DNA of 64,000 nucleotides from Actinotignum schaalii FB123-CNA-2 (GTDB taxonomy: Bacteria; Actinomycetota; Actinomycetes; Actinomycetales; Actinomycetaceae), in assembly GCF_000411135.1 (NCBI RefSeq), contig NZ_KE150263.1, positions 310,594 to 374,593 on the forward strand. Reading direction: 5' to 3'. Under the pieces are notes generated by a model. That model was not told the origin of the DNA, made no database searches, and was given only the letters and a program-made list of their open reading frames with translations. This document shows, piece after piece, positions 14,049 through 46,851 of this stretch; position 1 is the stretch's first letter, and each line of letters starts with the position of its first letter. The position numbers were made by a program, and so were the translations under genes.

Positions 14049-15107
14049 GTGACTACTTCTCCGCTCTATCTTGCTGCGCTTGCCGTCGGGGCTCTCGGCG
14101 TCGAGATTGTCTCCACGCGCCAACCGTTTGTTGAGACGGAAGATTTTGTTTCCGGTTGTGTCCTTGATTCCCAGGGGCGTCACTGGATGGTCAAAGTTCC
14201 TAAAAATGGAACGGCGGCGACGTCGTTAGAAGCCGAGGCGGCCCTAGCCCCCCAGCTTTTGGAAGAATTGCGGGCCGGTCGCCTGCCTTTCGATATTATG
14301 CGACCTGCTGGTTTTGTCGATGCTGATACCGGGGGCCGCGCGGTGGTCTACCCGGAGCCTTTTGGGCGGGCGCTGGTTTTCGAAGCCCTCGGTGAGGAAG
14401 AGGTGCGGGAGATGGGCCGCACCCTTGCCGCGATTCACAGCATTGACCGGGATGTGGTGGCTCGGTCCGGCTTGCCTGTTTATACGGCTGCGCAATGGCG
14501 CGAGCGGGTGCGAGCCGAACTTGAGGCAGCCGACCAGGAAACATCCCTTCCCACGGTTTTGCGCCAGCGTTGGATGGATGTGCTGGATAGCGACGCAGTG
14601 TGGGATTTTGAGGAAACAGTTGTCCACGGTGATGTGGCTTCCGATAATTTCTTGTGGTCAAACGGCTCGGTTGCGAGCGTGCTCGGTTTTGGTGAGGCAC
14701 ACGTGGGTGACCCGGCTCGGGATTTAGCCGCGATGCTTGTTCTCGATGATGACCAGTGGCCGAGTTTTATTACCTCGTATGAGAATGCGCGCTCGGTTGA
14801 GCTCTCGGAGGCAGATTACACCCGTATTATTTTCACCTCGGAGTTTGCGATTATTCGCTGGCTCATGTACGGGATTCGTACCGGCAGCATGGAGATTAGG
14901 AACGACGCCGTCCAGATGATCGCCGCGCTGGCCGAGGATGTACGCGAGGCCCCGGATTTGCTGCCCGCTCCCCCGGCAGCGGATCCTGCTTTCACTGAAA
15001 GCTCTTCCGATGCCGAGGCGAGCGGGGAGGCTGAGCTAACCGGGGAAACTGCGGTTACGGCTCCTGATTGGGCAGACCCGCACGAAGCAGAATTTCCTCC
15101 TCGCTGA
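14049..15107 (+). CDS. aminoglycoside/macrolide phosphotransferase-fold protein
   Basis: 352 residues with the APH/choline-kinase fold. The N-lobe runs to about 115; the catalytic loop is VVHGDVASDNFLW with Asp195 and Asn200, and the following GEAHVGDPARDLA matches the GDPA.DLA motif. The metal-binding Asp usually found in V(I/L)DF or DW is a glycine here (VLGFG, Gly213), so catalysis is uncertain. The C-terminal 50 residues are an acidic disordered tail. It could be an antibiotic kinase-like protein or a metabolic kinase; there is no resistance context. The last 53 bases overlap the 3' end of adnB on the other strand. Confidence 0.75.
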   Translation: MTTSPLYLAALAVGALGVEIVSTRQPFVETEDFVSGCVLDSQGRHWMVKVPKNGTAATSLEAEAALAPQLLEELRAGRLPFDIMRPAGFVDADTGGRAVVYPEPFGRALVFEALGEEEVREMGRTLAAIHSIDRDVVARSGLPVYTAAQWRERVRAELEAADQETSLPTVLRQRWMDVLDSDAVWDFEETVVHGDVASDNFLWSNGSVASVLGFGEAHVGDPARDLAAMLVLDDDQWPSFITSYENARSVELSEADYTRIIFTSEFAIIRWLMYGIRTGSMEIRNDAVQMIAALAEDVREAPDLLPAPPAADPAFTESSSDAEASGEAELTGETAVTAPDWADPHEAEFPPR

Positions 15108-18100
15108 GCTTTCCTGCTCGTAGTTCCTCAGCCCTGTTTCCCCGCAGGTATACGAAAGATGCGTCGATATCCGCGAGGGGGACGCCGTGTGCCCGGGACC
15201 AGGCCAGCCGGTAGAGGGCGAGTTGGAGTTCACGGGCAGCTTTAGTTTCCCCGTAGGGGCGCCGCCCGGATTTCCAGTCCACAATAGTCACCGGGGCCCG
15301 CCCGGGGACGCGCGAAGTATCGAAGACGGCGTCGAGCGCGCAGTGGACCACGTGTCCCCCGACGACCACGCCGATTTGCTGTTCGATGGCGAGGTGCGGA
15401 TAGCTGGCCCATTCGGACGCCTCATAGTTTTCATACATGCGCGCGATTTCTTCTGCGTTGAGAACCGGATCGTGCTCGAGGGGATCCTCGCTATCAATAT
15501 CAAGCACAGCAGCACGTGCGTAACTATCGGCGATCTTTTCGTGCAGGATCGTGCCCAAACGAGCCGCCCGCGAGGGCTGGCGGGGTACCGGGCGGCGTTT
15601 ATTGAGCAGGTATTCTTCGCGGTGTTCCGCCCGGTATACCAACTCTGTTGCGGTGTAATGCCCGCCGGCTTCAATGTATTCGGCTGTCTCAGCTTGCTGT
15701 TTGCGTGCGATGAGTCGGCTCACCACCTGGGTGAGTTCGGCGCGCTGGTCAGCATCGAGAGCTTCAGCTTCGATGGGAATGCTGCGGGCCAAGTCGCGCG
15801 GCCAGGCAAGCAGATCGGGTGCCTCGAAATAGTGCGGCACCGGTTCTAAGGCTGGTGGATATACAACATCCTCCCCGAAAATATCGATGAGTTCATCCAC
15901 GCTCAAGCTTTCCGGTGCAATTTCTGGGAATCCGGCCGGCAATTGCACGGAGGAGACCCTAGCTGGCGAGGCAGCCAATGCCAGCTCCCCGCGGGCAGCC
16001 GCTTCACGCACCGCGGTCAAGAAATACGAGGGTGGGCGCGCCGCAATTTCCAGCCTGTTATCTCCGCTATCGCTTAGGGTTTCAGACGTGTTTTTCTTTG
16101 CGGTGTTTTCCGCCTTGCGTACCCGGCCGGACACATCACTTTCATCTCGGAAACAGTAGCCAGCCAGGAGTAGTTCTCGGGTGGAACGAGTAAAAGCCAC
16201 GTAGGCGAGGCGGCGCGTCTCTTCGCTTTCATGGTATGCCAATTCGTCCAGGAAACGCGCATAGGTATTCGCAACGGTGACCTTATCGAGATTGCGCGCA
16301 CCGGCGAGCGTAAATTGGGGCAGGTAAGGATAGTCGGTACGCAAAGGATAGGGGAAAATACCGGTATTGCGCGGCCAGGCTTTCACTCCTTCGGTCACTT
16401 CAGAGAATTCACCTTTGACAAGTTCAGGAACGACGACGAGGTCACGCCATTCCAGCCCCTTGGCGGCATGGATCGTCATGAGTTGGATAACCCCGGGTGT
16501 GACATCAACCGTGCTGTCCAGACGCGGAATATCCGCCCCGGATTCTTCTTCCCCGCCGTGTTCTTCCGTTTCCACCACATCAAGCCATTCCACGAATTCA
16601 CGCATGCCACGCTGGCTTTCCCCGTGCGCATATGCGCGGGCCATGGAAATGAATTGGTCGATGGAGGTACGCACCCGCTGCCCGCCTTCACTGCGAGTAG
16701 CGGCCGCGGTATCTAATCCGAGGAGGTGAACAGCCCGGTCAATTTGATCGCCCAAAGAGTTGTGCAAACCTGAACGTAGGGACGCGAGAGTAGTATTCAC
16801 ACGCCGCAGGCGTTCCCATCCGATATCGGAAAATTCTGCCCGGGCGGCGCGGGCAGCTCGCCTGAGCTCAGCTTCGCCCGGCCCCGCTAGTGCCGGTAGC
16901 TGCGTATTCCCCTCTGCTTGGTCATTCTCATGCGCATCCGAGTTTCCGCTCGCGGCGGCGATGCCGTTAGTGAGGAGCATGAGCGCATGGAGGGACTCCC
17001 CAAGGTTTGCCTCATCGCGGCTGTTGAGAAGGGGCTGTGCAGCGGCCGGTGCACTCTCTTGTTCAGGTGCGTCGTCGCCCCCGGGTGCACCGTTACCATT
17101 ATTGATACCGGCACGCACTTCACTATCCAGGTGGGCTACCGCCGCGGCCGCGTAACGGCGCGCCCAGCGCGAGAGGGCACGAATATCGGCCACCCCAATA
17201 TTCCAGTGGGCAAGTAACCGGGCGAGGAGGTCGCTGCGAGCCGGGTTTGCGGCTAGACCGAGAGCGGCCCGGAGGGTGATAATTTCCGGACGTGCCACGA
17301 GTGATTCCCCACCTACGATTTCAAAGGCTAGGGGTTGGGGCGAGGTGGTACCAGGATGTACGGCATCTTCCCTGGTGAAATGGCTGTTGAGCTCTCGCAG
17401 GGCGGCGGCCATCCTATCGATATAGGAGCGTTTGCGGCACAGAACCGCGATCTCTGCCCCACGCGGTGCTTCTCCGCGGGCGCGACGCTCCTCATTTTCC
17501 GCTGCTACCCGCTCGCGTACCGCGAGGATATGCCGCGCAATACTCCGATAAGAATCTTCCCGAAGTAGGGTACGAATTTCGCTGACACGCCCGGCCCCTG
17601 CCCCGGGACGTTCACGCAGCCGGAGGGGCGCAATATCCGCGTGAGCGCCCATGCCACCCGCGGATCGTGCGCTTGCCGGCGCGGGCCTGAACTCGGGCGG
17701 AAAATTGGGGTGGTCACGGTCCTCGTGGAGGAACGTATCCCGTTCCAAGGGAGTGGCGACGGCGTTGCCGGCAGCGAGCACAGCCCGATCATTACGGAAC
17801 GCTGTGGAAAGCTGAAGCTTTTCTACGTTCCCAAAAATGCGAGTGGTGTGGTGTGCGAAATTCGTGAGGGCAGCCGCACTTGCGCCCCGCCACCCGTAGA
17901 TGGCCTGGTTTGGGTCTCCCACCGCCGTGATAGAGAGGAAGCCTTCTTTTTTCGCGGTGAGTGCGCCGAGCAGGAACTGGGCCTGATTTTCGTCGGTATC
18001 TTGGTATTCATCGAGCAAGATCAGGCGATACCGGGAGGATATTTCACGAGCAATCTGGGGATATCGAGTCATGATGCGACCGGCGATAGCAACCTGGTCG

Positions 18101-18921
18101 GCGAACTCGGTAACGTTGAGATCCTTTTTGAGCTGTAGATAGGACTCCACGAGCCCCAGCACCACCTGCTGTTGTTTGGGGACTGCCGTTCCCGCTTTCA
18201 AAGTGGCGAACTTCTTGGAGGCATCCGGGTACCAGCATTGTGCGCTCATGATGCGCGTTGAGTTCGCACACAGGGTTTCCAAGGCGTGATCCTGGGAGGT
18301 GAGGAAAGCACGGGCCTCTTCCAAGGTCACGCCATTAGTGAGAATCCCCTGGGCGAAAGTGAGGGCATCGTTGATGAGGCTGGAGCGGCTGCGTTCCGCG
18401 AGTACCGCGGTGTGTGCACTGCTGGGTAGGGCACCGACGAGCTGATCCATGAGCTGGACGCGTTCAGCATCGGTTATCAGGCGAGCGGTGGGATCGGCTC
18501 CGACCAGCATGCCGTATGCCCCGGCAATGTCATTGGCAAAAGAGTTGTAAGTGGAGATGACTGGCCTGCGCATCCCGCTTTCCGCGTTGCTTCTTTCCGG
18601 CGCGAGGAGGCCGAGTTTCTCCAGGCTGGTATTCACCCGTTCGGCCAACTCCCCGGCAGCTTTCCGCGTGAAAGTGAGTCCGAGAACCTGATCTGGAGTT
18701 ACATTGCCGCAGGCCAAGTGGTAAGCAATCCGATCCACCATGGTTTTTGTTTTTCCGGATCCCGCACCGGCAACCACGAGGATGGCCGGCGCAACGGAGG
18801 TGATCACTCGGCGTTGTTCCGCTGTGGGTGGGTGTTCTTGACCGGCTAGGATGCGCTCCAAAGCGGCGTTATGTTCCGCCGGGCCGCGCAAGTTGAGAGA
18901 TTCATGGGACGTAGGTGTCAT
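15055..18921 (-). CDS. adnB: AdnB-like UvrD-family helicase-nuclease
   Basis: 1288 residues, longer than mycobacterial AdnB (about 1,100). The N-terminal superfamily-1A motor is complete: Walker A GAGSGKT at 52-58, LTFTRKAAGELAERV (motif Ia), LLDEYQDTDENQ (motif II), GDPNQAIYGWRGA (III), LMTIHAAKGLEW and RLAYVAFTRS (V-VI). The C-terminus has a RecB-type nuclease with HCALDAVFDTS, VDWKSGRR and QLALYRLAW, the Asp..Asp-x-Lys core. It pairs with the adjacent AdnA to resect double-strand breaks in place of RecBCD or AddAB. Its ATG overlaps the adnA stop by four bases. It is also the family of UvrD/PcrA, but the nuclease domain and pairing decide. Confidence 0.92.
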   Translation of the reverse strand: MTPTSHESLNLRGPAEHNAALERILAGQEHPPTAEQRRVITSVAPAILVVAGAGSGKTKTMVDRIAYHLACGNVTPDQVLGLTFTRKAAGELAERVNTSLEKLGLLAPERSNAESGMRRPVISTYNSFANDIAGAYGMLVGADPTARLITDAERVQLMDQLVGALPSSAHTAVLAERSRSSLINDALTFAQGILTNGVTLEEARAFLTSQDHALETLCANSTRIMSAQCWYPDASKKFATLKAGTAVPKQQQVVLGLVESYLQLKKDLNVTEFADQVAIAGRIMTRYPQIAREISSRYRLILLDEYQDTDENQAQFLLGALTAKKEGFLSITAVGDPNQAIYGWRGASAAALTNFAHHTTRIFGNVEKLQLSTAFRNDRAVLAAGNAVATPLERDTFLHEDRDHPNFPPEFRPAPASARSAGGMGAHADIAPLRLRERPGAGAGRVSEIRTLLREDSYRSIARHILAVRERVAAENEERRARGEAPRGAEIAVLCRKRSYIDRMAAALRELNSHFTREDAVHPGTTSPQPLAFEIVGGESLVARPEIITLRAALGLAANPARSDLLARLLAHWNIGVADIRALSRWARRYAAAAVAHLDSEVRAGINNGNGAPGGDDAPEQESAPAAAQPLLNSRDEANLGESLHALMLLTNGIAAASGNSDAHENDQAEGNTQLPALAGPGEAELRRAARAARAEFSDIGWERLRRVNTTLASLRSGLHNSLGDQIDRAVHLLGLDTAAATRSEGGQRVRTSIDQFISMARAYAHGESQRGMREFVEWLDVVETEEHGGEEESGADIPRLDSTVDVTPGVIQLMTIHAAKGLEWRDLVVVPELVKGEFSEVTEGVKAWPRNTGIFPYPLRTDYPYLPQFTLAGARNLDKVTVANTYARFLDELAYHESEETRRLAYVAFTRSTRELLLAGYCFRDESDVSGRVRKAENTAKKNTSETLSDSGDNRLEIAARPPSYFLTAVREAAARGELALAASPARVSSVQLPAGFPEIAPESLSVDELIDIFGEDVVYPPALEPVPHYFEAPDLLAWPRDLARSIPIEAEALDADQRAELTQVVSRLIARKQQAETAEYIEAGGHYTATELVYRAEHREEYLLNKRRPVPRQPSRAARLGTILHEKIADSYARAAVLDIDSEDPLEHDPVLNAEEIARMYENYEASEWASYPHLAIEQQIGVVVGGHVVHCALDAVFDTSRVPGRAPVTIVDWKSGRRPYGETKAARELQLALYRLAWSRAHGVPLADIDASFVYLRGNRAEELRAGKLSEEEILLRAGLPNQEP

Positions 18922-22370: not shown

Positions 22371-22403
22371 GATCCTTTCTCCGCGGGTGCGTTGTTAGGA
22401 TTA

Positions 22404-22426
22404 ACCATACGAGAGGCTTACGACAA
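22404..22426 (-). promoter_or_regulatory. PafBC-type (RecA_NDp-like) promoter of adnA
   Basis: Read on the minus strand: TTGTCGTAA (22426-22418), eight bases, TATGGT (22409-22404). This matches the mycobacterial LexA-independent damage promoter tTGTCRgtg-N8-TAnnnT in spacing and in the TTGTCR and TAnnnT parts; GTG is replaced by TAA. It lies about 35 bases from the adnA start. Confidence 0.75.
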
Positions 22427-22442
22427 AATTTTTTGTCGTAAG
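22417..22442. repeat. perfect palindrome between adnA and the DUF3107 gene
   Basis: CTTACGACAAAA (22417-22428), two bases, TTTTGTCGTAAG (22431-22442): 12-bp arms without a mismatch. Each arm supplies the upstream half of a PafBC-type promoter, one for each direction. Confidence 0.9.
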
Positions 22443-22455
22443 GGGCCGCTACGGT
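22433..22455 (+). promoter_or_regulatory. PafBC-type promoter of the DUF3107 gene
   Basis: TTGTCGTAA (22433-22441), eight bases, TACGGT (22450-22455). It is the mirror copy of the adnA promoter and points at the DUF3107 gene 84 bases downstream. Confidence 0.65.
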
Positions 22456-22538
22456 GGAGGCATCGTGAAGATGAGCTATTCGGCTCGCTCGCGGCGGTGT
22501 CTTCCGGCTCCGCAACCCTAGATTTTAAGGAGAAACAT

Positions 22539-34386: not shown

Positions 34387-35685
34387 CTAGCTATCCTTTC
34401 GCTGCGAGCGCGCAAGTTCGCGTTGTCCGCTCACGTAGTGTGCGCGAGCTTCCTCAGCTTTAAGCTGTGCCTCACGCGCCTTTGATTCTAGCTTTTCGGC
34501 CCGGCGGCGGGCCAGGTTACCGGCCAGACCTCCCCATTCGGGGAGCTCTTCTTCCTCCTCGCCGGTGGCATTATCCGGTTCGGGCAGGAGGGAACCGGTG
34601 ATGGGATCATGGGGCCACATGAGTGTTTCCGGAACGGAGAGGGTGACGTAATTGGGCGTGGTGGTCCCCCGCAATTCTTCCGGATCCTGCGCTACGTAAG
34701 CCCTTGGCGGGTTCGCCATATACGCGGAGACCATGAGCACAATACGCGAAGCGAGGTTGAGCCACAGCAGCAGGGTGGCAATAGCGGCGAAGGGCGCGAG
34801 GAGCGGGTTTCCGGACACGTTGGATACCGCGGAGGTCCCCACTACCCGAATGATGGAGAGGAGGAACGCACCGAGGGCCGCCCCCGTGATGAAATCACGG
34901 CGGGGCACCCGGATCCCGGAGGTGAAGCGAATAATGAACATGATGACGAGCGCGTCCACGGTGGCCGCGAGCAGGAAGACCGCGATTTTGGTTCCGAATT
35001 GCACGAAGGCCCCGTCCATTCCAACATGGGTAAGGAGCATGGTTCCCACCGAGCCAACGAGGGAACCGATGATCGCGGAGGTAAGGATCCCCAGGGCGAG
35101 CACCACGAATCCAGCGAGGCGGAAGAAGATACTCACCACCCCATTTTCGGTTCGTTGATTCACCCCGAACATGGCACCGATGGCAGTGGAGAGCCCGGCC
35201 ATAATGGACATGGCCGTCCACAGCAGCACCGCGCCAGCGATGATGGTAGCCACCGCGGAGGTTCCCGAGAGGATGAGGTCATCGGGATTGATGAGGCCTT
35301 CCCCGGAGGAATCTTGGAGAATACCAGGCAGGGCCGCATTGACGGCATCCACCACGGTTTCCCGCAGCTGCGCGTTTCTTCCGAGAGTAGCCATAAACAC
35401 GGTCCAGGTTATGGTGAGAGCCGCGGTGATAGCGAAAAGCGCTGAATAGGCGATTCCACCGGCGAGTAGACCCCCACGCGCCTTTCCGTAGCGACCCAAG
35501 CCCCGCATAATACGCGTGCCTTGCGCCCATTCGGCCAGGGCTTTTCCTTTGCGAACGACGCCGACTATCCCGCTTTCCGCACCTTGTTCTCCGCTGGGTG
35601 CACCGCGCCGAGCGGCGTGCCGCCCCTGCCGGTCCACGCCGAGAGCTTGAGAGAAACCGTCCATCATTGAATTCCGCTTTGTCAC
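34387..35685 (-). CDS. YihY/UPF0761-family membrane protein
   Basis: 432 residues. The first 60 are hydrophilic; then a YihY domain with six membrane segments (GRYGKARGGLLAGGIAYSALFAITAALTI, AVLLWTAMSIMAGLSTAIGAMFGV, IATLLLWLNLASRIVLMVSAYMA) and a long acidic/basic coiled-coil tail. The family used to be called RNase BN but is not a nuclease; its role is unknown. The GTG at 35685 lies six bases after a TACGAT box that belongs to a PafBC-type promoter, so the mRNA is probably leaderless; ATG at 35667 is the alternative start. Confidence 0.87.
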   Translation of the reverse strand: MTKRNSMMDGFSQALGVDRQGRHAARRGAPSGEQGAESGIVGVVRKGKALAEWAQGTRIMRGLGRYGKARGGLLAGGIAYSALFAITAALTITWTVFMATLGRNAQLRETVVDAVNAALPGILQDSSGEGLINPDDLILSGTSAVATIIAGAVLLWTAMSIMAGLSTAIGAMFGVNQRTENGVVSIFFRLAGFVVLALGILTSAIIGSLVGSVGTMLLTHVGMDGAFVQFGTKIAVFLLAATVDALVIMFIIRFTSGIRVPRRDFITGAALGAFLLSIIRVVGTSAVSNVSGNPLLAPFAAIATLLLWLNLASRIVLMVSAYMANPPRAYVAQDPEELRGTTTPNYVTLSVPETLMWPHDPITGSLLPEPDNATGEEEEELPEWGGLAGNLARRRAEKLESKAREAQLKAEEARAHYVSGQRELARSQRKDS

Positions 35686-35691
35686 ATAGCC

Positions 35692-35714
35692 ATCGTACGT
35701 GAGGCCTACGACAA
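35692..35714 (-). promoter_or_regulatory. PafBC-type promoter of yihY
   Basis: On the minus strand TTGTCGTAG (35714-35706), eight bases, TACGAT (35697-35692), then six bases to the GTG start. The eight-base spacer GCCTCACG is close to that of adnA (GCCTCTCG). Confidence 0.72.
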
Positions 35715-35755: not shown

Positions 35756-36586
35756 CTAGAGCTGGTAGTCCACCGTGAGCGGGGCATGGTCGGACCAGCG
35801 CTCCGCGTAGGAGGATGCTCGCCCGATAGTAAAGGCTTGCGCGGTGGCGGCAAGTGCCGGGCTGGCCATATGGTAGTCGATGCGCCAGCCCACGTTGTTG
35901 TCAAAAGCTTTGCCACGTTGGCTCCACCAGGTGTAGGGGCCTTTGCCCTCATGCCCGCCGCGTTCTAGCAAAGCGCGTTGCACATCCACCCAGGGGCCAC
36001 CGAACCACCGATCCAGGTAGGCGATTTCATCGTCAAGCACCCCGGAGGTGCGATTGTGGTTGGACTTCCAGTTCTCAATATCAGCTTCGGTGTGAACGAT
36101 ATTGAAGTCCCCGGCAACTAGGGTGCGTGCGGCCGGGTCGAATTGTGCTAGGCGTGCACTCACCCGCTCGAGGTGCGCGTATTTTGCCGCCATTTTTTCC
36201 GGATTATCCGCCACTCCCGAATGCAGGTAGGCGCTCACCACCCGCAGCTGGAGATCCGGGAGTTCCACTTCAAGCCAGCGCCCGCTATCCACCGGGGCTT
36301 CGGAGCCAACAGGTTCCCCATCGGCTCCCACGCCCAGGTGATCCCGAACTTCACCTACGCCAATGCCTTCGCGTACTGCTACCGCGACTCCAGCCCGGCC
36401 TTTGAGTTCGGAAACAGCCGTGTAGACCTGATAACCGGTGCCCGCGAAAATTTCTGCGGTGATATCCGCGGGGGCACGCACTTCTTGGAGCAGGACGATA
36501 TCCGCCGCGGTAGCCTCCAACCACGCCGCGATTCCTTTTCGCGCCGCCGCGCGAATCCCGTTGACGTTGACAGTGCTGATCCGCAT
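35756..36586 (-). CDS. xthA: exodeoxyribonuclease III
   Basis: 276 residues of the ExoIII/APE1 family: VNVNGIRAA, LLQEVRA (metal-binding Glu), SAYLHSG, GDFNIVHTEADIENWK, GWRIDYHMAS and SDHAPLTVDY (catalytic Asp-His pair). It cleaves abasic sites and resects 3' ends in base-excision repair. ATG at 36586 comes one base after the folD stop, so it is the third gene of a glyA-folD-xthA operon. Confidence 0.95.
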   Translation of the reverse strand: MRISTVNVNGIRAAARKGIAAWLEATAADIVLLQEVRAPADITAEIFAGTGYQVYTAVSELKGRAGVAVAVREGIGVGEVRDHLGVGADGEPVGSEAPVDSGRWLEVELPDLQLRVVSAYLHSGVADNPEKMAAKYAHLERVSARLAQFDPAARTLVAGDFNIVHTEADIENWKSNHNRTSGVLDDEIAYLDRWFGGPWVDVQRALLERGGHEGKGPYTWWSQRGKAFDNNVGWRIDYHMASPALAATAQAFTIGRASSYAERWSDHAPLTVDYQL

Positions 36587-46767: not shown

Positions 46768-46851
46768 ACCGGGCCCGGTGCCGCACGACGGACCGGGCCC
46801 GGTGCCGCACGGTGGACCGGGCCCGATGCCGCACGGTGGACCGGGCCCGGT
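46768..46851. repeat. 24-bp tandem repeat array
   Basis: Three and a half units of 24 bases: ACCGGGCCCGGTGCCGCACG plus four bases (RYGG), at 46768, 46792, 46816 and the partial 46840. Each unit includes the palindrome GGGCCC. Only a few positions differ between copies, so the expansion looks recent. Confidence 0.9.

Follow-up and report, generated by a model that had tools for sequence, protein, structure and literature searches.

A perfect palindrome, CTTACGACAAAA-TT-TTTTGTCGTAAG, lies between the adnA and DUF3107 genes in the 64,000-nucleotide stretch of Actinotignum schaalii DNA analyzed here (the window; Table 1), and we consider it likely to comprise two divergent promoters of the PafBC type around one A/T-rich centre. 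On both strands the box TTGTCGTAA is followed, after eight bases, by a TANNNT element, one copy pointing to adnA and the other to DUF3107: the plus strand reads TTGTCGTAAGGGGCCGCTACGGT at 22433-22455 and the minus strand TTGTCGTAAGCCTCTCGTATGGT at 22404-22426. The first-pass annotation had described this palindrome with the motif on both strands, which we confirmed, and its interpretation of the motif as a PafBC-type promoter is supported by the presence of pafB and a pafC-like gene in the genome, by the exact N8 spacing and by conservation in the genus, with induction by DNA damage predicted. Transcripts would start near 22397 for adnA and near 22462 for DUF3107.

Table 1. Positions in the window of the genes and predicted promoter elements discussed in the text
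Feature	Position	Strand	Basis
adnB, UvrD-type helicase and PD-(D/E)XK nuclease, 1288 aa; start overlaps the end of adnA	15055..18921	-	family match
adnA, UvrD-type helicase and PD-(D/E)XK nuclease, 1150 aa	18918..22370	-	Pfam/family match
-10 element TATGGT, adnA promoter (predicted)	22404..22409	-	motif, conservation
Palindrome, candidate pair of back-to-back PafBC-type -26 boxes with a common A/T-rich centre	22417..22442	.	sequence and genus conservation
-26 box TTGTCGTAA, adnA promoter (predicted)	22418..22426	-	motif, spacing, conservation
-26 box TTGTCGTAA, DUF3107 promoter (predicted)	22433..22441	+	motif, spacing, conservation
-10 element TACGGT, DUF3107 promoter (predicted)	22450..22455	+	motif, conservation
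DUF3107 gene, 74 aa, PF11305	22539..22763	+	family match
YihY/BrkB-family membrane protein gene, behind the predicted TTGTCGTAG promoter	34387..35685	-	family match
PafBC-type promoter TTGTCGTAG-N8-TACGAT, 6 bases before the YihY start codon, leaderless layout (predicted)	35692..35714	-	motif
Exonuclease III-like gene, upstream of the YihY gene	35756-36586		named by eye

The paired sites between adnA and DUF3107

We examined how unusual the palindrome and its motifs are within the window. In 100 shuffles of the window the palindrome was never met, even with up to three mismatches allowed; the window itself holds four further inverted repeats whose arms, 12 or 13 bases long, are perfect, and palindromy alone is not rare in it. 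A long imperfect inverted repeat containing ACCGGGCCCGGT units was also seen at 46768-46851. The pattern TTGTCR-N11-TANNNT occurs three times in the window compared with 0.23 expected, the match outside the palindrome being the site ahead of the YihY/BrkB gene (Table 1). Both sites at the palindrome have the TGTCR core and a TANNNT element at N8 after the nonamer of the mycobacterial consensus, and carry TAA in place of gtg as box bases 7-9; these three bases are in lower case in the consensus and hence not invariant.

According to the available text of PMC11804915, single-stranded DNA activates PafBC on SigA polymerase that is already at the promoter, with PafB engaging the -26 motif and PafC contacting sigma domain 4. 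At the palindrome, DNA damage would provide single-stranded DNA that activates a PafB-PafC heterodimer on SigA RNA polymerase; PafB would read TTGTCGTAA instead of a -35 element and sigma would open TANNNT, each box serving one direction, with the adnA-adnB transcript produced in one and the DUF3107 transcript in the other. With the predicted starts only ~65 bp apart, the two initiation complexes would overlap and probably exclude one another, so that the two directions may fire in alternation. An A/T tract precedes TTGTCG at several other sites of this genome (G000; other G numbers denote further genomes of the family and L numbers individual loci) and in the consensus of G018, and two such boxes placed back to back would make a palindrome with an A/T centre.

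Both promoters are kept in five of the six genomes of the genus. When these five species were aligned, the boxes and the adnA -10 element TATGGT were invariant, one base of one spacer varied, and the DUF3107 -10 element read TACGGT or, in three sister species, TACTGT, a change at an N position of TANNNT. A perfect palindrome is seen in three of the five species; G017 and G062 carry a single change each, within the innermost two bases of its left arm. Past the DUF3107 -10 element, the leader (22456-22538 in the window) has 23 extra bases in the three sister species, which resemble a tandem copy of the -10 region that gives, or once gave, a second TACTGT. A conserved leader peptide in this interval (GTGAAGATG... 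to TAG) was considered and rejected, as its GTG is absent in three of the five species and G062 shows a one-base shift; a short ATG-started frame seems open in four species, the alignment being read by eye. No site was found in the adnA-DUF3107 gap of G063, of the same genus, although its two genes are divergent and it encodes a PafB (38% identity).

Across the family, DUF3107 is present in 58 of 61 genomes. Among 30 loci read, adnA is divergent from it within 450 bases in 25, more than 1 kb away in four and was not found in one. The exact motif precedes adnA in two of 27 loci outside the genus (G018 and G026) and DUF3107 in none of the 27. The wide spread of the gene pair, set against these low counts, indicates that the pair is old and that the double promoter is either young or was lost elsewhere. 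The break-resection genes have precedent as targets, as adnAB is given as a PafBC target in M. tuberculosis in the available portion of PMC8151990 and in M. smegmatis in that of a review (PMC8223512). As for DUF3107, which the first-pass annotation had called a protein of unknown function, this label stands only in part: full-length matches over 74 residues connect it to the solved proteins 7rus and 7rur (TB9.4) and 9nip, the last deposited as "Small RNA-Binding protein (SRB)" with 48 chains, and its product is possibly a small RNA-binding protein. Among the papers listed, our literature search recognised none on the SRB protein; in the accessible part of PMC5108770, Rv3208A, described as being of unknown function, is reported to be raised in M. 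tuberculosis isolates resistant to aminoglycosides.

Genome-wide motif counts and the genes behind the sites

Next, we extended the count to the whole genome. The loose pattern TTGTCR-N11-TANNNT yielded 14 matches compared with 11 in a reversed control, and the enrichment of TTGTCRNNN-N8-TANNNT on which the first-pass annotation had staked its proposal therefore fails as written. Instead, the signal sits in the TAR form. All 24 TTGTCGTAR sites in the genome were read, and seven have TANNNT at exactly N8 (0.13 expected, P ~3e-11), compared with a single TANNNT when the 11 other spacings between N3 and N14 are summed. Likewise, T follows TTGTCG in 9 of the 12 genome-wide matches with a -10 element and in 3 of 25 sites lacking one, and the corresponding figures for TAR are 7/12 and 1/25. 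The sites lacking a -10 element come from a background of 129 kb not selected for TAR, and the comparison with this background gave P 0.0003. Sixteen of the remaining 17 TTGTCGTAR sites lie under an open frame of at least 80 codons on either strand, some of these frames possibly being spurious.

Six of the seven TAR sites with N8 spacing occupy promoter positions, preceding adnA, DUF3107, sbcD, a RelB/DinJ antitoxin gene, the YihY/BrkB gene and the gene of a 443-residue membrane protein. Three of these genes, those for SbcD, YihY and the membrane protein, have their start codon six bases on from the -10 element, which corresponds to a leaderless layout. The seventh site (L002) was discarded as a regulon member: it lies antisense within a gene whose reverse-strand reading gives a DivIVA-like protein (named by eye), and is thus probably a coding coincidence. 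Repair genes stand behind two of the six, adnA and sbcD, so that the proposal of a double-strand-break resection complex as a member of such a regulon is borne out to the extent that the TAR-form motif precedes adnA as well as sbcD and other genes. The recA gene has an off-consensus box, ATGTCGCAG-N8-TACAGT, together with the sequence GAACAACCGTTC, which we take to be of the SOS type.

The one site of the other 17 without a covering open frame is the variant TTTTTTGTCGTAAGGGCGGGTTTGAAT, located between lexA (named by eye) and a divergent gene with no Pfam or NCBIfam match, and it points away from lexA. The motif adjoining lexA in M. tuberculosis also faces away from that gene, to the rv2719c operon, as stated in the part of PMC8151990 available.

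Seven further genomic matches to the loose pattern, located within or close to genes that by eye resemble PNP, argS, hpt, leuS and trpC, among others, were left unclaimed. At the leuS-like gene (L010, G000:C2:225657-225679, minus strand; counterparts L063 and L075 in G017 and G062), two species carry TTGTCGGAG and two sisters TTGTCGTAG, which looks like drift towards the box of the lineage. The argS-like gene (L003) has the form TTGTCGGGG and a near-leaderless start. In G061, one of the six genus genomes, a C-5 cytosine DNA methyltransferase gene (PF00145) lies leaderless behind TTGTCGTAG-N8-TAAACT (L077, contig C9); a methyltransferase would be an odd member of a damage regulon.

PafB and the lineage spelling of the box

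The regulator on which a PafBC-type reading depends appears to be encoded in the genome, as the first-pass annotation had required of its proposal, in the form of adjacent pafB and pafC-like genes. The only WYL-domain match of the genome is a 338-residue PafB, in which a winged helix-turn-helix containing Arg46 and Arg50 is followed by WYL and WCX domains, with WYL scoring above its cut-off and WCX and HTH_11 under theirs. By sequence, it matches PafBC chains in the PDB (6sj9, 7p5x and 9fnd; E 8.5e-5 to 3.5e-4). A fold search with its AlphaFold model, which is of modest quality (mean pLDDT 71, pTM 0.34) and shows residues 45-57 as one helix, ranked 9fnd first (E 2.7e-14), with TM-scores near 0.3 indicating that the domain arrangement is not matched. 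The gene after pafB is named pafC by its position and its family homologues; its product has no match in Pfam or NCBIfam, nor to solved PafC in the PDB, and a weak one to solved WYL-domain proteins (E 0.46). The third gene in the row encodes a helicase that we take to be HelY-like, presumably in the same order as in mycobacteria. PafB-like matches occur in 40 of 61 family genomes, a number that may include weak hits to other WYL proteins, and the 30 PafB loci read (flanks of 1.5 kb, own genome included) contain a pafC homologue in 22 cases and the helicase in 11. Reading by eye the frames in the 16 kb that surround pafBC, we recognised no Pup-proteasome gene. In G018 and G048 (L092 and L094), PafB and PafC are seemingly fused in one frame of ~740-770 residues, and G018 has boxes with C at base 7.

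We then tallied the base directly after TTGTCG in TTGTCG-N11-TANNNT matches across the family. T predominates in G000 (9/12) and G017 (10/11), G in G026 (22/25), G031 (9/10), G046 (12/16) and G037 (6/6) as well as in G015 (17/21, counted by eye), and C in G018 (19/24); the differences between G000, G018 and G026 are marked (P ~1e-13, chi-square with small expected counts). Accordingly, the commonest box end is TAR in G000 and G017, GAG or GTG in G026, G031, G046 and G037, and C-first in G018. The numbers of TTGTCG matches exceed the reversed control clearly in G026 (25 vs 4), G018 (24 vs 7), G046 (16 vs 5) and G015 (21 vs 10) and less so in G031 (10 vs 5), whereas the totals are not clearly over control in G000 (12 vs 9), G017 (11 vs 10), G047 (10 vs 8) and G037 (6 vs 4); G056 (17 vs 12) was left out of the comparison. 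The suggestion that the change from GTG to TAA may be specific to the lineage thus held up, with T here, G in four other family genomes and the mycobacterial consensus, and C in a fifth. The sbcD gene shows this change at orthologous promoters: the box is TTGTCG-TAG in the genus of the window and TTGTCG-GAG in G026 and G031, each followed by N8, TAGGCT or TAGCCT, and an ATG six bases on.

To assess which genes stand behind these boxes, 34 of the 65 matches of G018, G026, G031 and G037 were opened and the genes named by Pfam, NCBIfam or eye. Repair-type genes were found behind 13 of the 34: six of 14 in G018 (adnA, RadA, PriA, exonuclease III, a PD-(D/E)XK nuclease and an ImuA'-like gene just below the cut-off), five of 12 in G026 (sbcD, RmuC, a topoisomerase I-type gene, an ImuA' gene and an RNase_T-type exonuclease), two of five in G031 (sbcD and an exonuclease) and none of three in G037. 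The rest lie before metabolic, membrane or unnamed genes, or before no clear gene.

The spelling of the box is paralleled by one residue of the recognition helix, residue 49 of PafB, which sits between Arg46 and Arg50. The five genus species that have TAR boxes all carry Gln here and G018 carries Asp; Glu occurs in G026, G031, G046, G015, G037, M. smegmatis and G063, the last of which, with 12 TTGTCR matches compared with 35 in the control, provides a natural contrast case. Contacts of Gln with adenine, and of Glu or Asp with cytosine, are classical, and they fit the bases seen at position 7 provided that PafB reads the opposite strand where the base is T or G and the direct strand where it is C. 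The TAA box is probably read by PafB with Gln49 where mycobacterial PafB has Glu49. We put forward, with slightly more doubt than belief, the broader proposal that residue 49 sets base 7 (Glu-G, Gln-T, Asp-C) and that the lineage would run a retuned damage regulon orthogonal to the mycobacterial one. The link between residue and base draws on a small sample with two independent departures from Glu-G, and helix residues 44, 45 and 47 differ too. Several cases give no help to a simple code or count against it: G063 has Glu49 without enriched boxes; G040 has His49 and mixed boxes (11 vs 3 in the control); G048, of the genus of G018, has Thr49 and Lys46 and two matches vs eight in the control; and in G009 and G042 Gln49 occurs but Arg46 is lost. 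According to the available text of PMC6789036, the recognition helix of M. smegmatis PafB includes R46 and R50, and replacing the two together by alanine produces the same phenotype as the deletion.

Alternative readings and comparison with known systems

A perfectly symmetric 12-2-12 arrangement between divergent genes is what one would classically expect of a single operator through which a homodimeric regulator (TetR, MarR or similar) would control both neighbours. We regard this as distinctly improbable at the palindrome. CGACAA-N6-TTGTCG occurs once in the genome, among six inverted pairs with gaps of 0-24 bases (four in the control), so that there is no family of such operators with a recurrent fixed spacing; instead, half-sites turn up again one at a time, oriented towards a -10 element that lies at a fixed distance. 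Moreover, the half-sites in the same gap of G018 are 15 rather than 6 bases apart, and two of the five species carry an innermost arm mismatch. It is very improbable that the arrangement reflects SigA promoters of the ordinary kind, or a hairpin, in which the palindrome arose by chance and the TTGTCG matches are coincidental, even though the loose pattern stands at control level genome-wide and the window is not short of perfect 12-base inverted repeats: the exact spacing preference of the TAR form, the sbcD promoters in three genera and the conservation in the genus all argue against coincidence, and TTGTCG, at 11 bases from the -10 element, is too close to serve as an ordinary -35 element.

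A more limited reading accepts the adnA-ward half as a working PafBC promoter and takes the DUF3107-ward half as a by-product of the symmetric A/T centre, or as serving another purpose. The exact motif indeed precedes adnA but not DUF3107 in two other genera (G018 and G026), the leader past the DUF3107 -10 element differs by 23 bases among species, and adnAB is a reported mycobacterial target while Rv3208A goes unmentioned in the main text of PMC8151990 as available. Yet the five species share the DUF3107-ward box without any change, and its -10 element keeps TA-NNN-T although an N position has changed; a promoter in the adnA direction alone is an unlikely explanation. We retain the reading of two divergent PafBC-type promoters as the likely one.

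The PafBC literature that we found concerns mycobacteria, plus one Arthrobacter structure; in the parts of these sources available, the motif is said to extend to other Actinobacteria (review PMC8223512) and to be slightly more degenerate in M. tuberculosis than in M. smegmatis (PMC8151990). Among the titles and abstracts listed, our search yielded no account of such a symmetric layout, of DUF3107 being a target or of a specificity code at residue 49, and none of boxes specific to lineages outside mycobacteria. A box of a second type, paired with a distinct PafB recognition helix, would illustrate the joint change of a global damage activator and its promoters, and the pairing of residue 49 with base 7 offers a one-residue test of a sequence code. 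The shared promoter provides a concrete lead on DUF3107, and if the residue 49 code is true, a double-strand-break resection complex and a possible RNA-binding protein would fire from one symmetric promoter.

Both the kind of promoter and adnAB as a PafBC target are already known in mycobacteria. The sites described here resemble the RecA-independent (RecA-NDp, P1) PafBC promoters of mycobacteria, tTGTCRgtg-N8-TAnnnT, in the TGTCR core, the N8 spacing, the TANNNT element, the adnAB target and the presence of pafB with a pafC-like gene. They differ in having TAR rather than GTG after TTGTCG, in the placement of two promoters back to back in one palindrome, and in that several targets look leaderless, with 6 nt between the -10 element and the start codon. 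The AdnAB proteins are like those of mycobacteria, both subunits combining a UvrD-type helicase with a PD-(D/E)XK nuclease, whereas adnA is here divergent from DUF3107 at short distance, as in most of the family loci read. Compared with the solved relatives TB9.4 and SRB, the DUF3107 gene of this genome is set apart by its position behind a predicted promoter of the DNA-damage type.
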